22,449 nucleotides of DNA from a virus (IMGVR_UViG_3300032084_001789:1-22449); one strand, 5' to 3'; shown: positions 5,710 through 22,402, numbered from the stretch's first letter. Notes: generated by a model not told the origin, from the letters alone. Made by a program: numbers and translations.

Positions 5710-8700
5710 ATGTCAGTAAAGAAATTTAAGTTCGTTTCCCCCGGAGTTTTTATCAACGAGATTGATAACTCCTTTATCCCAAGAAGGCCCGATACTATCG
5801 GACCTACCGTCGTCGGCCGCGCTACGCAAGGTTTAGCCATGCAGCCGCAAACTGTCGACGCTTACTCTGATTTCGTGAGTATGTTCGGTGAAACTGTCCC
5901 CGGTAATGCCGGAGGTGACGTTTACCGTTCAGCCAGAGATCTCCAGTCTCCAATGTACGGCATCTACGCCGCCAAGGGATTCCTTAATGCTGGTGTGGCT
6001 CCGCTTACCTTTGTTAGAACCTTGGGTCAACAAAGCCCGACCGCTGCGAACGGTACTGCTCCCAACTTTGCCTCCCAGGCTGGTTGGAGAACATTAGAGC
6101 TTGGTCAAGGCGACGGTGGAGAGGGTGGAGCATACGGACTCGTCATGTGGAAATCTGCTTCCCTTACCACTACTGCTAGTAACCCAGTGACTGTCACGGG
6201 CGCCCTAGCCGCAGTCTGGTATCTTGAATCAGGAATGATAGCTCTTTCTGGTAACGCTGCTGGCTCTGGATCTACTACCACTCGCTGCAATTACAAGGCT
6301 CCCGGCACCCTGATCGAGTCTGATGCTAATGGTAACTTCAAGGCTGTAATCCAAACCGGACAATCTGCTCTTGACGAGCACGTTTTCGAGTTCAACATGG
6401 CTGATACGAACGATAAGTATGCCCGACAAGTCTTCAACACAAACCCGCAACTTTTTGTTTCAGGAAACTTCTACCCCAGCGCGCCCAACGGCGCCGACAT
6501 GTACTGGTTAGGCGAAACATACGACCAACACATCAGAGATATTTTCTCAGGAAACTTGGCACAGTCTTTTTATGGCGCAATCGTCCCTATTGCCTTGAAG
6601 GCCACTCCCACTTCAACCCCTGCTAACCGTCTGGGCTCTAACGCTCAAGCTCGCGAAGCAGTTGCGGGCTGGTTTATCAGTCAGGACACTGGTGAGGCTG
6701 CTGACTACAATCCAATAACCAGCACGGTCAAACTGTTTAGGCTCGTCGGCCGCGGCCATGGCGCATGGTTGAGCAGAAATGTAAAAATCTCTATCTCAAA
6801 CATTCGCCAGTCCAACAGTAGCACTACTGACTACGGAACGTTCTCGGTTCTTGTCCGCTCGATGTCGGATACAGACAACGCTATGCAGATTCTTGAACGC
6901 TTTGACGAGTGCACCTTAGACCCAACTTCTCCGAACTACGTCGGTCGTAAGATTGGTGACCAATACTTAAGTTGGGATGAGGCCGAGCGCCGCTATAAGC
7001 GATATGGTCAATACCCTAACCAATCCAAGTACGTGTATGTCGATGTTAACCCTGACGTCGCCGCCGGCGCGACAGGAATGGAAACATTGCTTCCATTTGG
7101 ATACTACGATATGCCAAAATACAAGGACATTGACCTTATTTACGCGGCCGCATCGTCGTCTGCCGCGTTGCCGGGCGCTACAATTGCCGATGGAGCGGCA
7201 TATGTTATTCCAATGACTTCGTCTAACCCGGTGGTCTCGCAACCATCTACATTAAGATTCTCGAACCTTGGAACGAATGCTCTTTCAATGTCCGCTGGTG
7301 GAGACGAACCCGGAGATGCAGGATTTACAGCCCTGAACATTCAGATGCCTCGTCCACTGCTTAGGCACTCTGCTTCTGATGGCGGTATCTCCGATCCTCG
7401 CAACGCATTCTTTGGGTTCATGACCGGCAGAAGCTCTGGCTCTATGAGATATGACGCTAGTGTTGGTTCTTTGACCGAGATGCTTAACAACCAATTCTCG
7501 GCTTTGGTCGACAACTCAACGGTATCCCTCGGTGGTATTGACGGATTCTCACAAGTGGTTACCTTGGATGACTTGGTTGAGTCTGCCGGTTCTAGCGGAA
7601 ACTTAATGTGGTATTGTTCTGGTTCCCGCTCTGGGTATGCCCCCGGCACCGGTAGTTTACCGCACCGCTCCTACACCTCAGCCAATGGCTACCAAGCGCT
7701 TCTTAATAAGGGATTCAACTCCTTCACCGCGCCACTCTGGGGTGGGTTTGATGGATTCGACGTACACCTGCCCGATCCTCTCTACAATAACCAAATGACC
7801 GCAGCCAGCAACAACGATAACAGTTCTGCCTACTACACTATTAAGAAAGCAATCGATAGTGTTGCAGATCCAGAAGTGGTTGAGACCAACTTGATCACAA
7901 TGCCGGGTCTTACCCAGACGGGTCTTACTCGACATATCGTTGAGGTGTGTGAGCGCCGTGCCGATGCAATGTCTCTCATTGATCTTCCGGACGTCTACCT
8001 GCCCACGCACGAAGGTGATTACAGCACTAAGAAAACGCTGGCGTCTCGTATCGCAACCACCCCACAGGCCGCAGCCACTGCTCTGAGAGATCGTCAGATT
8101 GACTCCTCTTACGGTGCAACCTTCTACCCATGGGTTCAGACCCGTGATGAGAACACTGGCGCCGCAGTTTGGCTTCCGCCAAGCGCAGCAATGCTGGGTG
8201 TTCTTGCAAGCTCTGAGAAGAAAGCGCAACTTTGGTTCGCTCCTGCCGGCTTCAACCGCGGTGGACTTACCGAGGGCGCTGCTGGAATCCCAGTTAGTGC
8301 AGTAACCGAGAAACTTACCTCTAAGGAACGTGACTTGCTTTACGAAGCTAACATCAACCCGATTGCCTCCTTCCCATCAACCGGAATCGTGGTATTTGGT
8401 CAGAAGACTCTGCAAGAGCGTCAGTCCGCTCTGGATAGAATTAACGTTAGACGTCTTGTCATCTTCCTCAAGAAGGAGATTTCAAGAATCTCTACCAAGA
8501 TTCTCTTCGAGCAGAACGTACAAACTACTTGGAACCGCTTCACCGGTCTCGTTGAGCCTTTCCTTGCCAATGTTAAGAGCAACTTCGGTATCTCTGACTA
8601 CAAGTTGGTTCTTGATGAATCGACAACAACCCCCGATCTTATTGATCAAAACATCATGTACGCCAAGATTATGGTTAAGCCAGCGCGTTCAATCGAATAT

Positions 8701-8751
8701 ATTGCGATTGACTTCGTGGTTGCTTCAACCGGCGCATCATTTGATGACTAA
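5710..8751 (+). CDS. 18: Contractile tail sheath protein, T4 gp18-like
   Basis: This 1013-residue protein polymerises around the tail tube and contracts to drive the tube into the cell. The N-terminus (KKFKFVSPGVFINEIDNSFI, then RRPDTIGPTVVGRATQG) is the hallmark start of T4-type sheath proteins. The C-terminal domain (INVRRLVIFLKKEISRISTK, then LFEQN, TWNRFTGLVEPFL, and the final YIAIDFVV strand) is the conserved core that carries the inter-subunit strand exchange. T4 gp18 is 659 residues. The extra 350 or so residues lie in the middle, roughly residues 130-650, and probably form additional surface domains outside the core, which is inference. Ribosome site AGAGGA is ten bases before the ATG, and the tube gene follows after a short promoter-like gap. 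Confidence 0.95.
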   Translation: MSVKKFKFVSPGVFINEIDNSFIPRRPDTIGPTVVGRATQGLAMQPQTVDAYSDFVSMFGETVPGNAGGDVYRSARDLQSPMYGIYAAKGFLNAGVAPLTFVRTLGQQSPTAANGTAPNFASQAGWRTLELGQGDGGEGGAYGLVMWKSASLTTTASNPVTVTGALAAVWYLESGMIALSGNAAGSGSTTTRCNYKAPGTLIESDANGNFKAVIQTGQSALDEHVFEFNMADTNDKYARQVFNTNPQLFVSGNFYPSAPNGADMYWLGETYDQHIRDIFSGNLAQSFYGAIVPIALKATPTSTPANRLGSNAQAREAVAGWFISQDTGEAADYNPITSTVKLFRLVGRGHGAWLSRNVKISISNIRQSNSSTTDYGTFSVLVRSMSDTDNAMQILERFDECTLDPTSPNYVGRKIGDQYLSWDEAERRYKRYGQYPNQSKYVYVDVNPDVAAGATGMETLLPFGYYDMPKYKDIDLIYAAASSSAALPGATIADGAAYVIPMTSSNPVVSQPSTLRFSNLGTNALSMSAGGDEPGDAGFTALNIQMPRPLLRHSASDGGISDPRNAFFGFMTGRSSGSMRYDASVGSLTEMLNNQFSALVDNSTVSLGGIDGFSQVVTLDDLVESAGSSGNLMWYCSGSRSGYAPGTGSLPHRSYTSANGYQALLNKGFNSFTAPLWGGFDGFDVHLPDPLYNNQMTAASNNDNSSAYYTIKKAIDSVADPEVVETNLITMPGLTQTGLTRHIVEVCERRADAMSLIDLPDVYLPTHEGDYSTKKTLASRIATTPQAAATALRDRQIDSSYGATFYPWVQTRDENTGAAVWLPPSAAMLGVLASSEKKAQLWFAPAGFNRGGLTEGAAGIPVSAVTEKLTSKERDLLYEANINPIASFPSTGIVVFGQKTLQERQSALDRINVRRLVIFLKKEISRISTKILFEQNVQTTWNRFTGLVEPFLANVKSNFGISDYKLVLDESTTTPDLIDQNIMYAKIMVKPARSIEYIAIDFVVASTGASFDD

Positions 8752-8797: not shown

Positions 8798-9388
8798 ATG
8801 CCATTCTGGTCAGACAACTTTGCCGAAAGCACACAACTCAAAGACCCTAAACGTCAGTTTAGGTTTAAGGTAGAATTTACAGGAATTAGTGCCCCACAAG
8901 GAGGTTCCCTCATGTGGTACGCTAAAACCGTTAATAAGCCTGCCTTCACTATCAACACAGCCGAACACCAGTACTTGAACCATACGTTCTACTATCCGGG
9001 TGCCGTTAGCTGGGAGCCGATCAGCATGACCCTTGTTGATCCTCGTGATCCCGACATGACTGCTACTCTTTCGGATATTATCAACCTTTCGGGCTATACG
9101 CCACCTTCGAACCCCAACTCGCTTGGCTCCATGTCGAAATCCCGTGCCGCCGGCGCACTGGGCGCAGTGTACATTTCCCAGCTTGATGGCGACGGAAACG
9201 AAATTGAAAAATGGACGCTCTGGAATGCATTCATCACCAATGTAAAATATGGTGATCTTGCTTATGGAAACGATGACTTGGTTGAGATGACCTGTGAAAT
9301 TAGATATGATTGGGCACGCTTACAGTCCTTCGGTGGCGTATCTCGCGCAACCGGTGGTGACGATGGCAACACTTTCTTCCAATCATAG
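8798..9388 (+). CDS. 19: Tail tube protein, T4 gp19-like
   Basis: This 196-residue protein is the subunit of the inner tube through which DNA passes. The N-terminal half (DPKRQFRFKVEFTG, WYAKTVNKPAFTI, NHTFYYPGAVSWEPISMTLV, DP) follows the beta-sandwich pattern of T4 gp19: a 'R-F-x-V-x-F' strand, 'K-T-V-x-K-P' linker and 'PG-x-x-x-W-x-x-I-x-x-x-L-V-D' strand. T4 gp19 is 163 residues, so this is modestly longer, with an extension after about residue 100. It follows the sheath gene directly, as in T4, with ribosome site TAGGAG. No Cys-rich or membrane segments are present. Confidence 0.93.
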   Translation: MPFWSDNFAESTQLKDPKRQFRFKVEFTGISAPQGGSLMWYAKTVNKPAFTINTAEHQYLNHTFYYPGAVSWEPISMTLVDPRDPDMTATLSDIINLSGYTPPSNPNSLGSMSKSRAAGALGAVYISQLDGDGNEIEKWTLWNAFITNVKYGDLAYGNDDLVEMTCEIRYDWARLQSFGGVSRATGGDDGNTFFQS

Positions 9389-9403
9389 TACAACACAGCA
9401 TTT

Positions 9404-9421
9404 AAACATGTTATAATGTTT
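9404..9421 (+). promoter_or_regulatory. AT-rich hairpin or weak promoter in the tube/chaperone gap
   Basis: AAACAT (9404-9409) can pair with ATGTTT (9416-9421) around a six-base loop, followed by TCAT, which would be a weak terminator. The same place contains TATAAT (9412-9417), a perfect -10 hexamer without a convincing -35. I cannot tell which function, if either, is real. Confidence 0.3.
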
Positions 9422-9449
9422 TCATACAATATTTCAAAAGAGGTGTATA

Positions 9450-10310
9450 TTGTCAAGAAATAGTGATAGACTGGGTTCGCAGTTTGATGCGGATGCTGCG
9501 ACCCAGCAACAAGTAGTTCAAAACACAGAGAGCAATGACTTTTCGTTTATTGTTCCAACAGAGATTATCGACTTGCCCTCCAAGGGCACGTTATATCCGC
9601 TTGGTCATCCCCTTTATGGGAAAGACACAATCGAAATCAAGCAAATGACAGCGAAAGAAGAGGATATGTTAACTTCTCGTTCTTTGCTTAAGAAAGGCGT
9701 AGCGTTAGATCGTGTTCTAAGCAGTATTATTACTGATAAGTCCATCAACGCCGACACGCTGCTTGTTGGAGACAGGAATGCTCTCATCATTGCAGCAAGA
9801 ATCTCGGCATACGGCAACGAGTATAATACCAAGGTAACATGCCCAGCATGCGGTACCGCCCAAGAGTATAATTTTGATTTAAACGAGCAAAACGTTTATT
9901 CGGGAGAGGGCTTGCAAGAGTTTGTTACCGAAGAGCCCTCGGATGGCGTATTTACGACCAAACTCCCTCGCACTGGCCTCGACATCGGATTTAGAATTCT
10001 GACGGGTGCTGATGAGCGCCGCCTCATTGAGGGAGTTGAGATGGATCGTAAGAACAAGAGAGTTCATGAAAGAAACGTGTCACGCCAACTTTTAAACATG
10101 ATAGTTTCTGTAAATGGAAACGCAACAAGCGAAGCAATTAACTACGTTGTAGAAAACTTGCCATCTGTAGATGTTCGCCATCTTCGTCAGGCATATAAAG
10201 CAGCGTCACCGAACGTAGATTTAACTCAACACTTTGAGTGTGCTGAGTGTGATCACGAGCAGGACATGGAGGTCCCGCTTAACGCGGACTTTTTTTGGCC
10301 TGACGCCTGA
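9450..10310 (+). CDS. 26: Baseplate hub / tail assembly chaperone protein, T4 gp26-like, with zinc ribbon
   Basis: This 286-residue protein starts at TTG 9450 with AGAGGTG (about 9438-9444) just upstream. The block DLPSKGTLYPLGHPLYGK followed by IEIKQMTAKEEDMLTSRSLL is typical of the gp26-like baseplate-hub assembly family of T4-type marine phages. Two Cys pairs, C131-x2-C134 and C264-x2-C267, can form a zinc ribbon that bridges the middle of the protein. Its position between the tube and the tape measure is the classic position of tail assembly chaperones, which bind the tape measure before tube growth. The last codons run through a T7 tract (10290-10296) into WPDA and stop, overlapping the next ORF, so a frameshifted longer product is likely. 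The gp26 name is by resemblance; a pure chaperone role is an equally good description. Confidence 0.7.
   Translation: MSRNSDRLGSQFDADAATQQQVVQNTESNDFSFIVPTEIIDLPSKGTLYPLGHPLYGKDTIEIKQMTAKEEDMLTSRSLLKKGVALDRVLSSIITDKSINADTLLVGDRNALIIAARISAYGNEYNTKVTCPACGTAQEYNFDLNEQNVYSGEGLQEFVTEEPSDGVFTTKLPRTGLDIGFRILTGADERRLIEGVEMDRKNKRVHERNVSRQLLNMIVSVNGNATSEAINYVVENLPSVDVRHLRQAYKAASPNVDLTQHFECAECDHEQDMEVPLNADFFWPDA
10290..10296 (+). other. Candidate programmed frameshift site (T7 slippery run)
   Basis: The upstream ORF reads GAC TTT TTT TGG CCT GAC GCC TGA. The downstream ORF reads TTT TTT GGC CTG ACG CCT GAT. A +1 slip, or equivalently a -2 slip, on the seven-T run would join them only four codons before the first stop, giving a fusion of 371 or 372 residues ending at 10566. 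Programmed frameshifting of this kind is widespread in tail assembly chaperone genes placed just before tape measure genes. Confidence 0.6.
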
Positions 10311-17933: not shown

Positions 17934-19163
17934 ATGTCAGATTTTTACAAAAAAAGCAGTAATGAAGGGACAAAAGATTTATACCAGAAGTCTTTGATAT
18001 ACAAGCTAGATATATCTGACGCGAACTACGGCAATCTGAAAGATTTTAACTTTGCAGAAAAGTATCTTTATGGCCGGGTAAACCGAAATTATGTTCCCAT
18101 CGAGATTGATACATCTCGCGCCTCCGCGTTCAAAGGACTACCCAATACGAACAAAAGTGAGTCCGCCGGCTTTCAAGCGATGAACTTTGTCGCAGATGCT
18201 TTTAGTGATTTGGCCATGCAGTTTAGAAAAAAAGTTGCCGTAGGTCAAATCAGAGCAGATGACCCGTTTTTGAGCGAACTTAATGTTAACCGTGCGTATG
18301 AGAGTCCCCGAACTCTGTACAGAAATTTAAATTTAGGCAACAAACAGACGATAGATCAGATGTTTGTAGAGGCAGACATCAAGTTTGAGACTTTTGGCCA
18401 ATTTATGATGCATTTGATGGAAATTCTTGAAGACTTACTCGAGTTGGTTCCCTTCACGTATCCGGCCTTTGTCAAAAGTTCATTGTGTCCAATGGAGGTT
18501 ACGGGTCTTGTTATTGACATTGCGAATAAATCATCCTCTAATGATGAAGAGAAAATAAAAATGTTCAAAGAGAGTCCCAACTGGAATTATTACTTAAATG
18601 TATGTCGTTCTTACGGCTTTTCGGTAGACATGAATGTACCATGGCGCCTTGTGGCAGACATAGGGACACCCGAAATGATTCAGTATGCAAGAAGATATGG
18701 ATTTTTAAGCACGGACTCTGTATTGGCCATGGCGTACACGCCGAGTTACAGGACATATTATGAAAACTTTAAAAATATTATGTTAGAGCTTTACAACACG
18801 GTGAAATCAGATTATATTGAAGTTGAATATTGTCAAGATGGCACAACTAGAAACAAAGTTGTTAGACCGGTTGAGTATACCCGCGATACTCTGTCAGAGA
18901 CATACAGCGAGAGGCAGTTTTTAGAGTTTTATATGAATCTTAGAATAGCAGAAGAAAAAGAAATCTCACTTAATCAACATGAGATAAGAGAACTAATCAG
19001 GCAGTGTCTTCAAATGGCAAGGACACGCGCCCCAATGGACGTGGTCAGTATGTTTGAAACCTCGGTCGCAGCCACATACGATAGCAGTGGCTCCTTGACA
19101 GATTTACTATACCGTGTTAAAGTACAGGAAGAAGAGAGGGTAAATGTACTTTCAAACACTTGA
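17934..19163 (+). CDS. Unrecognised protein, probably virion-associated
   Basis: This 409-residue protein is mostly alpha-helical and rich in aromatic residues and Asp/Glu, with no signal peptide or membrane segment. Notable stretches are NFAEKYLYGRVNRNYVPIEI, NFVADAFSDLAMQFRKKVAV-GQIRADDPFLSELNV, and a Phe/Met/Leu-rich helix with acidic residues near residues 155-178. Two Cys residues (about 188 and 224) lie in the central part. It starts 14 bases after the baseplate-type gene with AGGAAA upstream, and its end overlaps the polymerase gene by 20 bases, so it belongs to the same operon as both groups. I can assign no function. A late structural role is the simplest reading because everything before it is structural, but it could also be an early gene of the following replication group. 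Confidence 0.6.
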   Translation: MSDFYKKSSNEGTKDLYQKSLIYKLDISDANYGNLKDFNFAEKYLYGRVNRNYVPIEIDTSRASAFKGLPNTNKSESAGFQAMNFVADAFSDLAMQFRKKVAVGQIRADDPFLSELNVNRAYESPRTLYRNLNLGNKQTIDQMFVEADIKFETFGQFMMHLMEILEDLLELVPFTYPAFVKSSLCPMEVTGLVIDIANKSSSNDEEKIKMFKESPNWNYYLNVCRSYGFSVDMNVPWRLVADIGTPEMIQYARRYGFLSTDSVLAMAYTPSYRTYYENFKNIMLELYNTVKSDYIEVEYCQDGTTRNKVVRPVEYTRDTLSETYSERQFLEFYMNLRIAEEKEISLNQHEIRELIRQCLQMARTRAPMDVVSMFETSVAATYDSSGSLTDLLYRVKVQEEERVNVLSNT

Positions 19164-20343
19164 TGATAAATCTGAATGTGTGGGTGTGTATAAAGACGGG
19201 AGACTTCATTTTGAAGATATTCCAACTGGTTTACTGCGCACTTGGCGCCCCGGTGGCTTTGTCCATGATGATGGCATCGAATATGCGTGGCTAATGAGCA
19301 GCGGAGCCACACTCTTAGAAGCATGTCCCTCGAATTTGATTGAAGAATACCAAGCAAGTATTCGGAAGATGACGGCTTTTTACAAATCTTTCAAGATAGC
19401 TAGGTTAAATTTTGATGATCATTGTATTTTCGATTTAATACCTCATGACTCGCTAATTCAATTCTGTGAAATAAAAAATAAAATCACTCAACATGTATTT
19501 GAGACCTGCGAGAAACCAGAAAACTATGATTTCATGGTCAAGGTCGCGACTCTGATCCACAAGATCAGGTACCAGCCCCTGAACATCGATATGTCTGACT
19601 GTAAGGGTCTCCATACTAGTACAAGCAACCGCGCCAGCATCAAAAAAATAATGCAACTTCAAAAGTATATTGATTATAATATCTACGGCACCGTCACAGG
19701 GCGCCTTACCACCAATTCGGAATCCTTTCCGGTCCTCACTATGAAGAAAGAGCTTAGGAAAATCTTAAAACCACAGAATGATTGGTTTGTATCGCTCGAT
19801 TACAATGGCGCCGAGGCGAGAACTGTACTGTCTCTGCTGGGAAACGATCAGCCAGACGTAGACATTCATGAGTGGAATATTAAAAACATCTTCCATTCGC
19901 ATAGGTTTAATTCCAGCCCCAGTCGCGAAGAAGCCAAGATCATGTTTTTTGGTTGGCTTTATGATCCTACGTCCTCAGCTATCAAGAGCAGATACTATGA
20001 TCGCGATGGCTTGCTAAAAAATCACTATAAAGAGGGTTGTGTAAAGACAGTATTTGGTCGCTCAATTCAAGTTGAGCAGCGAAAAGCTTTGAATTACCTT
20101 ATTCAGAGCACTACATCTGATTTGGTGTTGGAGCAGGCGATTGAGATCGATAACTTCCTGAAAGACAAGAAGAGCTTTATCTCTCACATCGTTCACGATG
20201 AATTGGTGATTGACATGTCCGATGACGAGCGCGATCTGGTGCCTGATATAAAGGACATTTTCGCCAACAATAGGCTAGACAGGTTCATGGTCAATCTGCA
20301 AGCCGGCCAGAACTACTATGACTTAAAGGATTTGAAAGTATGA
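19144..20343 (+). CDS. Mini family-A DNA polymerase without exonuclease domain
   Basis: This 399-residue protein carries all three polymerase motifs of the Pol I family: motif A at 217-226 (SLDYNGAEAR, metal-binding D219), motif B on the O helix (R261, K265, F269, G270, Y273; REEAKIMFFGWLYD) and motif C at 350-353 (VHDE, metal-binding D352). Supporting sites are TGRLTT (185-190) before motif A and VFGRSIQVEQRKALNYLIQS (303-322), which corresponds to the conserved R...N...Q helix. The first 180 residues show none of the 3'-5' exonuclease motifs, and the whole protein is far shorter than E. coli Pol I (928), T7 polymerase (704) or most phage family-A enzymes. Catalytic residues are intact, so DNA synthesis is plausible. 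It may be a repair or accessory polymerase. It overlaps its neighbours on both sides. ATG 19144 is supported by GAGAGGG just upstream, though spacing is short. Confidence 0.8.
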   Translation: MYFQTLDDKSECVGVYKDGRLHFEDIPTGLLRTWRPGGFVHDDGIEYAWLMSSGATLLEACPSNLIEEYQASIRKMTAFYKSFKIARLNFDDHCIFDLIPHDSLIQFCEIKNKITQHVFETCEKPENYDFMVKVATLIHKIRYQPLNIDMSDCKGLHTSTSNRASIKKIMQLQKYIDYNIYGTVTGRLTTNSESFPVLTMKKELRKILKPQNDWFVSLDYNGAEARTVLSLLGNDQPDVDIHEWNIKNIFHSHRFNSSPSREEAKIMFFGWLYDPTSSAIKSRYYDRDGLLKNHYKEGCVKTVFGRSIQVEQRKALNYLIQSTTSDLVLEQAIEIDNFLKDKKSFISHIVHDELVIDMSDDERDLVPDIKDIFANNRLDRFMVNLQAGQNYYDLKDLKV

Positions 20344-21203
20344 TTTCGTTAATAGGCATCGGAAACGCTTCTTCGGCAATTGTGCAAAAGTTTTCCGAGA
20401 TATCTCAATATGATATCTACACCCTTAACAGCAAAGTGGAGAAGAATACCAAAAACGCGCTAAAACTGGAAGCCTACAACCGCCCAGAGGAATACGAGAA
20501 GAACTTACCAGACGTGAGAAAGTTTCTCAAGAATGCCAAGGGTCGCGTTCAAGTTTTTGTTATGGGCGCCTCGATGAGTTCAATTTATTCTTTGGGCATA
20601 CTACAACAAATACAGCATAAAGAAATTGATGTATTTTATATTAAGCCGGATACTGATCTGTTGACTGGTGTTCCACGCCTTGTGGAGAACACGGTATTTG
20701 GGGTTTTGCAAGAATACGCCAGATCTGGTCTTTTCCGAACGTTTACAATATTATCCAATGAGAACATTGAAAGAGTTGTGCAAAAGATTAGTTTAAAAAA
20801 CTACTACGAAACCTTGAACGATACAATCTTTTCGTGTGTGCACTATATGAATTATTTTGAGTACACAGAGCCACACATCGGCAATGTCTCCAAGCCCAGC
20901 GAAGTAAATCGCATCCGTACGGTTGGAATGCTTGACATGGCAAAGATTCAAGAAAAATGGCTTTTTGACCTTGACGCCGAACGAGAACTGTGTTATTATA
21001 TGTGTATAAACGAAGAAAGATTAGAAAAAGAAACAGGGCTACATAAGAAGTTGGTAGACACTTTGAAGACAAAACCTAGAAATGCCTACCGGAAGATTTC
21101 CTATGCAATTTACGAAACACCTTTACCAGACTTTGGGTTCTGCGTTGCCCACACTAACGCAATACAACAACAAAAAACTCTTGACAAGCTAGGACAAGAG
21201 TGA
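20340..21203 (+). CDS. Diverged FtsZ/tubulin-like protein
   Basis: This 287-residue protein starts inside the polymerase stop codon (ATGA), so translation is coupled. The order of segments follows FtsZ: a first beta strand and glycine turn (ISLIGIGNASSAIV, 2-15, compare FtsZ IGVGGGGGNAV); a strand and turn at 71-81 (QVFVMGASMSS) where FtsZ has the GGGTGTG loop; 'DVFYIKPDTDLLTG' and a helix at about 97-130 like the VVTKPF segment; 'FTILSNENI' (135-143) like the TLIVIPN-x-x-L strand, with N140 64 residues after the glycine loop (61 in FtsZ); 'YYETLNDTIFSCVHYMNYF' (155-173) like the AND-x-L-x-x-A-x-x-x-I helix; then 'RIRTVGML' (191-198) like DVRTVM. The glycine loop and catalytic acidic loop are degenerate, so GTPase activity may be weak or lost. 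Homology is inferred by eye. Confidence 0.58.
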   Translation: MISLIGIGNASSAIVQKFSEISQYDIYTLNSKVEKNTKNALKLEAYNRPEEYEKNLPDVRKFLKNAKGRVQVFVMGASMSSIYSLGILQQIQHKEIDVFYIKPDTDLLTGVPRLVENTVFGVLQEYARSGLFRTFTILSNENIERVVQKISLKNYYETLNDTIFSCVHYMNYFEYTEPHIGNVSKPSEVNRIRTVGMLDMAKIQEKWLFDLDAERELCYYMCINEERLEKETGLHKKLVDTLKTKPRNAYRKISYAIYETPLPDFGFCVAHTNAIQQQKTLDKLGQE

Positions 21204-21263: not shown

Positions 21264-22028
21264 ATGTCAATCAATATGGAACTAATGAGAAAGAAGCTCG
21301 CTTCACTACGTGGCGAGGGAACCAAGGACGCATCGTCCCCTTGGTTTAAACCGGACGAGGGAGATACAGATATTCGTATCGTGCCCACCAACGATGGTGA
21401 CCCCTTGAAGGAAATGTTTTTCCACTATAATGTGGGTGAGCACCGCGGAGGTATCCTTTGTCCGAAGCGCAATTATGGCGAACACTGCCCAATTTGCGAA
21501 TTTGCCTCTTCTGTATGGCGAGAAGGCGTTGACAACAACGATGAGGAAAGCAAGAAGCTTGCCAAGTCTCTGTTCGTCCGAGGCCGCTACTTCTCACCAG
21601 TCGTCGTTCGTGGACGGGAAGAAGAGGGAGTTAAGATTTATGGATACGGCAAGAAGGCTTACGAGCTACTTCTTGGATACATCCTCGACCCCGAATACGG
21701 AGATATCACAGATGCCAGTGAGGGTACTGACATCACGCTGACCTACACAAAGCCCACTACACCGGGCGCATACCCTCAAACTAATATGAAGATGAGGCGA
21801 AACACGTCCCCATTGCTCGAAGATACGGAAGCGATCCCAGCCCTCCTCGATCGCATGCCGGACTTTGCTTCTCTTTTCGAACGCCACACTCCAGAAGAGA
21901 TTGATAGCATCTTGGATGAGCAGCTTTCAGGTAACAAAAGTGCCGAATCCCGCTCCCGAGAGACTACAGCATATGGAAAACCCACTAGTGACGTAGACAA
22001 AGCCTTCGACGAACTGATGAACGGATAG
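21264..22028 (+). CDS. 32: Single-stranded DNA-binding protein, T4 gp32-like
   Basis: This 254-residue protein coats single-stranded DNA during replication, recombination and repair. The N-terminus has the basic 'MSINMELMRKKLASLRG' stretch that in gp32 drives cooperative binding. A core with a zinc site follows: H54-x11-C66-x8-C75-x2-C78, close to the T4 gp32 pattern H-x12-C-x9-C-x2-C. The OB-fold region then includes SLFVRGRYFSPVVVRGREEE and VKIYGYGKKAYELLLGYI. The C-terminus ends in an acidic, hydrophobic tail (DVDKAFDELMNG), the part of gp32 that contacts partner proteins. T4 gp32 is 301 residues, so this is a compact version. It has its own promoter, a structured leader and AGGAG (21250-21254) nine bases before ATG. 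It follows the polymerase and FtsZ-like genes, consistent with a DNA-metabolism block. Confidence 0.9.
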   Translation: MSINMELMRKKLASLRGEGTKDASSPWFKPDEGDTDIRIVPTNDGDPLKEMFFHYNVGEHRGGILCPKRNYGEHCPICEFASSVWREGVDNNDEESKKLAKSLFVRGRYFSPVVVRGREEEGVKIYGYGKKAYELLLGYILDPEYGDITDASEGTDITLTYTKPTTPGAYPQTNMKMRRNTSPLLEDTEAIPALLDRMPDFASLFERHTPEEIDSILDEQLSGNKSAESRSRETTAYGKPTSDVDKAFDELMNG

Positions 22029-22108: not shown

Positions 22109-22402
22109 ATGGATTGGTTGAAATCACAATGGGCCTCATGGAAGGTTAAAGTATCTGTCGTCGGAGGCGTTCTTGTCATCGCGACTGCATACGGAAGCTG
22201 CGAGGTGGACCCCGGAGACGTGTCAACAAACACGACAACGGAGACTACCGAGATCACAGGCACCACAGGTGAGACGGTTGAAGTCTCTGCCACTACTACG
22301 ACAGAGGTGACCACCACCGGAACCAGCACAACAGGTACGGAAGGCGGAACAACCACTGGGACCACCACTGATGGTGGCGAGACCACCACAACTACTGAGT
22401 AG
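22109..22402 (+). CDS. Small membrane-anchored Thr-rich protein
   Basis: I do not recognise this 97-residue protein. Residues 1-14 (MDWLKSQWASWKVK) are amphipathic and basic, residues 15-29 (VSVVGGVLVIATAYG) form a single hydrophobic segment, and Cys31 follows. From about residue 33 the protein is almost entirely Thr, Gly, Glu and Ser (GTTTGTTTDGGETTTTTE at the end), so it is probably an unstructured, acidic chain. The sequence before Cys31 (AYGSC) is only a poor lipobox because Tyr is at -3, so lipoprotein modification is uncertain; a signal-anchor is the alternative. ATG 22109 has a good ribosome site (AAAAGGAG, ending at 22101). The gene is flanked by two related hairpins. A role in the envelope or in lysis is possible but unsupported. 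Confidence 0.65.
   Translation: MDWLKSQWASWKVKVSVVGGVLVIATAYGSCEVDPGDVSTNTTTETTEITGTTGETVEVSATTTTEVTTTGTSTTGTEGGTTTGTTTDGGETTTTTE

Follow-up and report, generated by a model that had tools for sequence, protein, structure and literature searches.

A predicted tubulin-fold protein encoded beside the divPolA1-type mini-polymerase of uncultured marine T4-type phages

The 22,449-base stretch analysed here (the window) is the whole virus record IMGVR_UViG_3300032084_001789, which covers part of the genome of a bacterial virus from a marine clade of distant, uncultured T4-type phages. It carries two overlapping genes, one for a mini family-A DNA polymerase and one for a protein, henceforth Z, that is predicted to have the two-domain fold of FtsZ and tubulin, and we found that this pair recurs in related phages. 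The polymerase belongs to divPolA1, already described in 2024 (Yutin et al. 2024, PMC11348598); what is new is the tubulin-fold partner in the divPolA1 cassette. Our overall reading, put forward tentatively and at a little under an even chance, is that divPolA1 is a gap filler and Z a divergent tubulin-fold accessory protein, possibly an adaptor to a canonical phage FtsZ.

A preliminary description of the window had pointed to two overlapping genes sharing a start-stop ATGA, and both open reading frames (ORFs) and their overlap were confirmed (Table 1). Scans of IMG/VR with family profiles returned at least ~590 confirmed relatives per gene, and the best 80 of each scan were examined. Among the matches listed, Z is found on the same contig for 164 of the 164 distinct polymerases, the exact 4-base (-4) overlap is present in 146 of these 164 pairs, and Z occurs without the polymerase solely at contig beginnings, with identity to the window sequences dropping to ~41% for the polymerases and ~30% for Z. 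The adjacency is not a matter of chance, because co-occurrence is complete and 146 pairs have the exact overlap; the survey of related phages that the preliminary description had suggested thus came out in its favour. No paper describing the pair was found in the open-access literature, in line with its statement that it knew of no described system with this pair; the polymerase itself was known as divPolA1 (PMC11348598). A piece of CP070664.1, a WOR-3 metagenome-assembled genome (L301), has the order polymerase, Z, gp32 and UvsX; we considered it as a bacterial occurrence, the sole one among the matches, and rejected it, as it adjoins host genes and a stretch of N and is probably a chimeric assembly. 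At two loci a MazG-like ORF lies between the polymerase and Z (L117, 9182-9496; L121, 9182-9490).

The first gene proved to encode a family-A polymerase with intact motifs, as proposed (Pfam DNA_pol_A, 2.4e-17). The catalytic residues of motif A (D219), motif B (R261, K265, F269 and Y273) and motif C (H351 and D352) do not vary across 66 relatives, and the protein is under strong purifying selection, with a median ratio of nonsynonymous to synonymous substitution rates (dN/dS) of 0.04 (16 pairs). The protein is short, and its AlphaFold2 (AF2) model, with a mean predicted local distance difference test (pLDDT) score of 93.2, superposes on the large fragment of Bst Pol I with a VIA Z-score of 25.6 over 354 residues (model residues 1-395 against chain residues 316-876). 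The earlier claim that it has no exonuclease domain stands insofar as no exonuclease family matched the ORF in Pfam (including PF01612) or PHROG, but it needs amending, for the alignment of the model with Bst Pol I starts at residue 316 of the latter, and in divPolA1 this region has been described as an inactivated exonuclease domain (PMC11348598). Within this N-terminal region C12, C61 and C94 are conserved in the family and H93 is mostly conserved, and these residues could, judging from the alignment, be a candidate metal site.

The AF2 model of Z is likewise confident (pLDDT 91.4; predicted template modelling score, pTM, 0.90). In a Foldseek search against PDB it reached an E-value of 2.9e-12 to FtsZ, and the top matches were all FtsZ/tubulin-family chains. 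It aligns to CetZ with a VIA Z-score of 23.5 over 267 of 287 residues (root-mean-square deviation 3.9 Å) and to TubZ with 22.6 over 278 residues, and its best matches among viral models include phage FtsZ and PhuZ-type proteins. By its predicted structure, then, Z has the two-domain FtsZ/tubulin fold, in agreement with the FtsZ segment order noted earlier, and both proteins of the pair are modelled with the folds proposed for them. Strong purifying selection acts on Z also (median dN/dS 0.05, 16 pairs). Sequence profiles gave a divided answer to the same proposal, since the family-A polymerase match was obtained but no significant tubulin/FtsZ profile match was found for Z: no significant match appeared in Pfam (including Tubulin) or PHROG and no meaningful one among PDB sequences, with single sequence or profile, and the hhalign alignment of the Z profile to FtsZ covers 20 columns only (E 0.008), corresponding to the first strand-loop-helix. 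Uteroglobin matches to Z in PDB were discarded as chance, the single stretches having E-values of 2 to 5 and the chains being small and unrelated. Neither of the findings that the preliminary description had named as fatal to it, an unrelated fold for Z or adjacency in one genome only, was encountered, the former as far as the model goes.

How Z might handle nucleotide is suggested by its conserved residues. The tubulin signature GGGTG[ST]G (T4, phosphate loop) is present in 0 of 171 Z proteins and the T7 catalytic motif NxDxx[DE] in 1 of 171, and because Z fails these two sequence tests, which mark active FtsZ and tubulins, it is structurally a tubulin-fold protein yet is not filed as FtsZ, TubZ or PhuZ. 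The H8/H9 region is also reduced in the secondary structure of the model. We take N140 and N160 to occupy guanine-contact positions of tubulin, ordering Z by secondary structure along the tubulin plan. Z would thus bind nucleotide, probably without hydrolysing it; with the phosphate-binding signature and T7 both missing, we think it unlikely to form a self-sufficient GTP-driven filament. The most conserved family-specific patch of Z is QEYARSG, a candidate partner surface.

The divPolA1 enzymes are phage PolA proteins with the palm intact, the thumb truncated and the exonuclease domain inactivated, known from 14 phages that also have a regular family A, B or C polymerase, with the immuto phages heading the group and the divPolA1 gene lying upstream of conserved replication genes (PMC11348598); the words FtsZ, tubulin and GTPase are absent from the main text of that paper. 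Our profile of the window polymerase family matches divPolA1 of Flavobacterium phage vB_FspM_immuto at 1.4e-17 and, at 3.4e-13, an unannotated 408-residue protein encoded by Microcystis phage Mel-JY01. In both phages the gene order is divPolA1, a small gene, gp32, UvsX/RecA, 5'-3' exonuclease and DnaB-type helicase, with additional ORFs ahead of gp32. Starting from the immuto and Mel-JY01 polymerases we collected 160 loci, of which 0 have Z and 147 carry a small gene between divPolA1 and gp32 that we name for its motif LVHRKKESNT (for example L309:1346-1801 and L306:1674-2063); this gene is in turn found in 0 of 282 Z loci. The comparison for Z does not extend to three divPolA1 genomes from GOV and a fourth genome. 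In a tree of 279 polymerases the Z-positive ones form a single clade, set apart from the rest by a long branch, and the N-terminal exonuclease remnant has a median length of 99 residues in this clade versus 139 in the non-Z clade (~40 shorter). One apparent Z-negative locus within the clade, L142, is a cut-out of a Z-containing contig.

Two longer relatives show the genome context of the pair: G001 (195 kb), which is probably complete because it has a 127-base end repeat, and G002 (187 kb). In both, the cassette opens with the polymerase and Z and continues with gp32, UvsX, a 5'-3' exonuclease, a DnaB-type helicase and a class II ribonucleotide reductase, and farther along lies a gene for DNA polymerase III alpha (PolC) of 1143 residues. 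PolC is present in 15 of 18 Z-type contigs versus 0 of 20 outgroup contigs, and searches of the Z contigs turned up no family-B polymerase and neither a DnaQ-type nor a Pol I-type 3'-5' exonuclease. The replicase of the Z phages is thus likely of family C and, for this reason, the mini-polymerase most probably plays an auxiliary part. The contrast first drawn with T4-type phages, which normally use the family-B polymerase gp43, was borne out to the extent that the relatives have no gp43-type PolB; a family-C replicase had not been foreseen. The idea that the mini-polymerase serves as replicase in place of gp43, raised by the lack of PolB or another PolA in contigs of up to 195 kb, was overturned by PolC. 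Since a Pol I-type 5'-3' exonuclease and gp32 are encoded alongside, gap filling, once primers are removed or in repair, would be the natural role for the enzyme.

The Z phages encode a second, canonical FtsZ. All four Z genomes of at least 130 kb (G001-G004) have it, as does G010, and six non-Z divPolA1 genomes lack it (immuto being covered to 150 of 160 kb). The G001 protein matches Pfam Tubulin above the cut-off and FtsZ in PDB at 5.8e-12; the family has GGGGTGS in 74 of 74 members and T7 as F[DN]xxD in 72 of 74, together with a conserved acidic N-terminal extension, and gave no match in the cultured-phage collection. It is hyperconserved: G001 and G002 share 94.9% identity in canonical FtsZ, versus 49.9% in the polymerase, 58.8% in Z and 74.5% in gp32, and most other proteins shared by the two genomes are far less alike than canonical FtsZ. 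An SbcD-like gene lies near canonical FtsZ in both.

How might these components work together? We propose that the family-C polymerase would copy the genome, while divPolA1, with the neighbouring 5'-3' exonuclease and gp32, would fill gaps in Okazaki-fragment maturation, repair and recombination, so that Pol I would in effect be split across several genes. Z would be an accessory subunit or protein-protein module of this gap-filling (lagging-strand or repair) module, and possibly an adaptor or regulator for canonical phage FtsZ, whose filament may organise replication or repair sites. We infer gap filling, nucleotide binding, complex formation and the link to canonical FtsZ from gene order, conservation and models.

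Several observations weigh against this proposal. Seven loci have pentapeptide-repeat, MazG-like or other ORFs or sequence between polymerase and Z, and because of these junction insertions the coupling of the two genes is not absolute. A mirror-tree comparison gave no special polymerase-Z signal (partial r 0.39 for polymerase-Z versus 0.65 for Z-gp32). The sister phages keep the cassette without Z, with another small gene occupying its slot. Contact between Z and the polymerase is itself something we infer, and interaction between Z and canonical FtsZ is guesswork; the two show no significant sequence relation in profile-profile comparison, where again only the first strand-loop-helix could be aligned. 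The acidic residue at position 188 (80% of members, n=63; partially conserved) may also, judging by the alignment, leave some GTPase activity in Z possible.

The bolder form of the proposal, in which Z tethers the auxiliary polymerase, together with its cassette, to canonical phage FtsZ filaments and DNA synthesis or gap repair depends on a cytoskeletal partner, we regard as unlikely. We give similarly little credence to a frozen gene order, whereby Z was gained once beside divPolA1 and kept by linkage with a role unrelated to DNA synthesis. The Z-positive polymerases do form one clade, and therefore co-occurrence need not reflect repeated selection, and an unrelated small gene fills the slot in the sister phages; however, order and overlap persist down to ~41% polymerase identity, although junction insertions occur. 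Equally doubtful is that Z modulates filaments, as a capping or co-assembling subunit that has lost its T7 face and acts on phage or host FtsZ to block division: the reduced T7/H8 region with a partly kept nucleotide side and the restriction of canonical FtsZ to the Z phages of our sample would suit such a protein, but Z is nearly always beside the polymerase with canonical FtsZ elsewhere in the genome, and we saw no likeness to a known inhibitor of FtsZ. Least probable of all is an active PhuZ/TubZ-like cytoskeletal Z that self-polymerises with GTP to position or segregate replicating DNA, the adjacency reflecting expression timing only, since, despite the tubulin fold, the PhuZ-type structures among its best viral matches and the invariant N140 and N160 at candidate guanine contacts, Z proteins have the two active-site motifs in 0 and 1 of 171 cases and their genomes already encode a canonical FtsZ with both.

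Should polymerase and Z work together as we propose, the tubulin superfamily, with its cytoskeletal and plasmid-partition roles, would gain a further one in DNA synthesis, and the pair would show how a polymerase lacking proofreading, and probably truncated in its thumb, becomes useful. The phages concerned are abundant in marine data, with at least ~590 confirmed contigs per gene.

The surroundings of the pair in the window bear out its placement in a T4-type phage between virion genes and gp32: the left end encodes a gp23-type capsid protein, followed by tail sheath, tail tube and baseplate genes (Pfam/PHROG) and, after these virion genes, a 409-residue uncharacterised ORF that precedes the polymerase, Z and gp32. 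The tail sheath protein (5710-8751, 1013 residues) matches the sheath families over about its last third only and has a large N-terminal addition. A small threonine-rich ORF at 22109-22402 has a lipobox-like ATAYGSC after a hydrophobic segment and is possibly a lipoprotein. A gene for IMP dehydrogenase, a guanine nucleotide supply step, occurs in G001 (L158:2182-3201) and in Mel-JY01 (82271-83368). Several unrelated small ORFs of G001 and L058 begin alike, with N-termini of the kind MKITKQQLKQIIKEE or MKLLxENWRxFLNE that resemble the capsid-targeting sequences which the prohead protease cleaves off in T4.

Table 1. Positions of the polymerase-Z pair, its motifs and associated features (window coordinates unless a genome or locus is named).
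Feature	Position	Strand	Basis or conservation
Mini family-A DNA polymerase, divPolA1 type, 399 aa	19144..20343	+	Pfam, AF2, VIA, profile match to immuto divPolA1
Reduced N-terminal region (vestigial exonuclease), ~98 residues	19144..19440	+	Conservation; length comparison; no PF01612 match
Motif A SLDYNGAEARTV, catalytic D219	19789..19824	+	D219, N221, E224, R226 invariant, n=66
Motif B / O-helix, R261-x3-K265-x3-F269-x3-Y273	19924..19962	+	Invariant, n=66
Motif C, HDE, residues 351-353	20194..20202	+	H351, D352 invariant, n=66
ATGA start/stop overlap joining polymerase and Z	20340..20343	+	-4 overlap in 146/164 pairs
Z, predicted tubulin/FtsZ-fold protein, 287 aa	20340..21203	+	AF2, Foldseek, VIA, dN/dS
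Z T1 loop GxG (G6, G8)	20355..20363	+	G6 98%, G8 100%, n=63; within sole hhalign-matched stretch to FtsZ
Z T4 position, G[AS]SxSS replacing GGGTG[ST]G	20565..20582	+	Signature in 0/171 Z proteins
Z motif QEYARSG (124-130), end of helix H4	20709..20729	+	Q124, Y126, R128 invariant; A127, S129 97-98%, n=63
Z N140 (T6), candidate guanine contact	20757..20759	+	Invariant, n=63; equivalence from secondary-structure order only
Z N160 (helix H7), candidate guanine contact	20817..20819	+	Invariant, n=63; equivalence from secondary-structure order only
gp32-type single-stranded DNA binding protein, next cassette gene	21264..22028	+	Pfam gp32 4.2e-15; PHROG 1192 1.6e-23
Canonical FtsZ-like protein, ~380 aa	G001 9060-10202 (L151); G002 127088-128224	-	Also G003, G004, G010
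ORFs with shared N-termini (MKITKQQLKQIIKEE type)	G001 7763, 10213, 14771, 15385, 92666, 95470; L058 1049-3603		

Comparison with known systems places the cassette as follows. Rhodothermus phage RM378 is likewise a distant T4-type phage whose polymerase functions are divided among genes, but we rejected kinship with its split polymerase, as its annotated polymerase genes are not matched by the divPolA1 profile nor their neighbours by Z. With bacterial DNA polymerase I the phages share a polymerase domain and a 5'-3' exonuclease of the kind found at the N-terminus of Pol I, encoded here by a separate downstream gene; unlike Pol I, they have these activities spread over different genes, and their 3'-5' exonuclease is absent or non-functional. 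With FtsZ, TubZ, PhuZ and CetZ, Z shares in its model the two-domain fold over nearly its full length (VIA Z-score 21-23.5), the GxG T1 loop and, as far as secondary-structure order indicates, asparagines at guanine-contact positions, but it differs from them in lacking the tubulin signature, a conserved T7 catalytic motif and a long C-terminal tail and in its reduced H8/H9. The closest counterpart is divPolA1 of immuto, which has the same intact family-A palm motifs, inactive exonuclease, regular replicase besides and replication genes downstream, and whose truncated thumb the short window polymerase probably shares; the window polymerase differs in its shorter N-terminal remnant and in the gene that follows it, which is Z and not the LVHRKKESNT gene.

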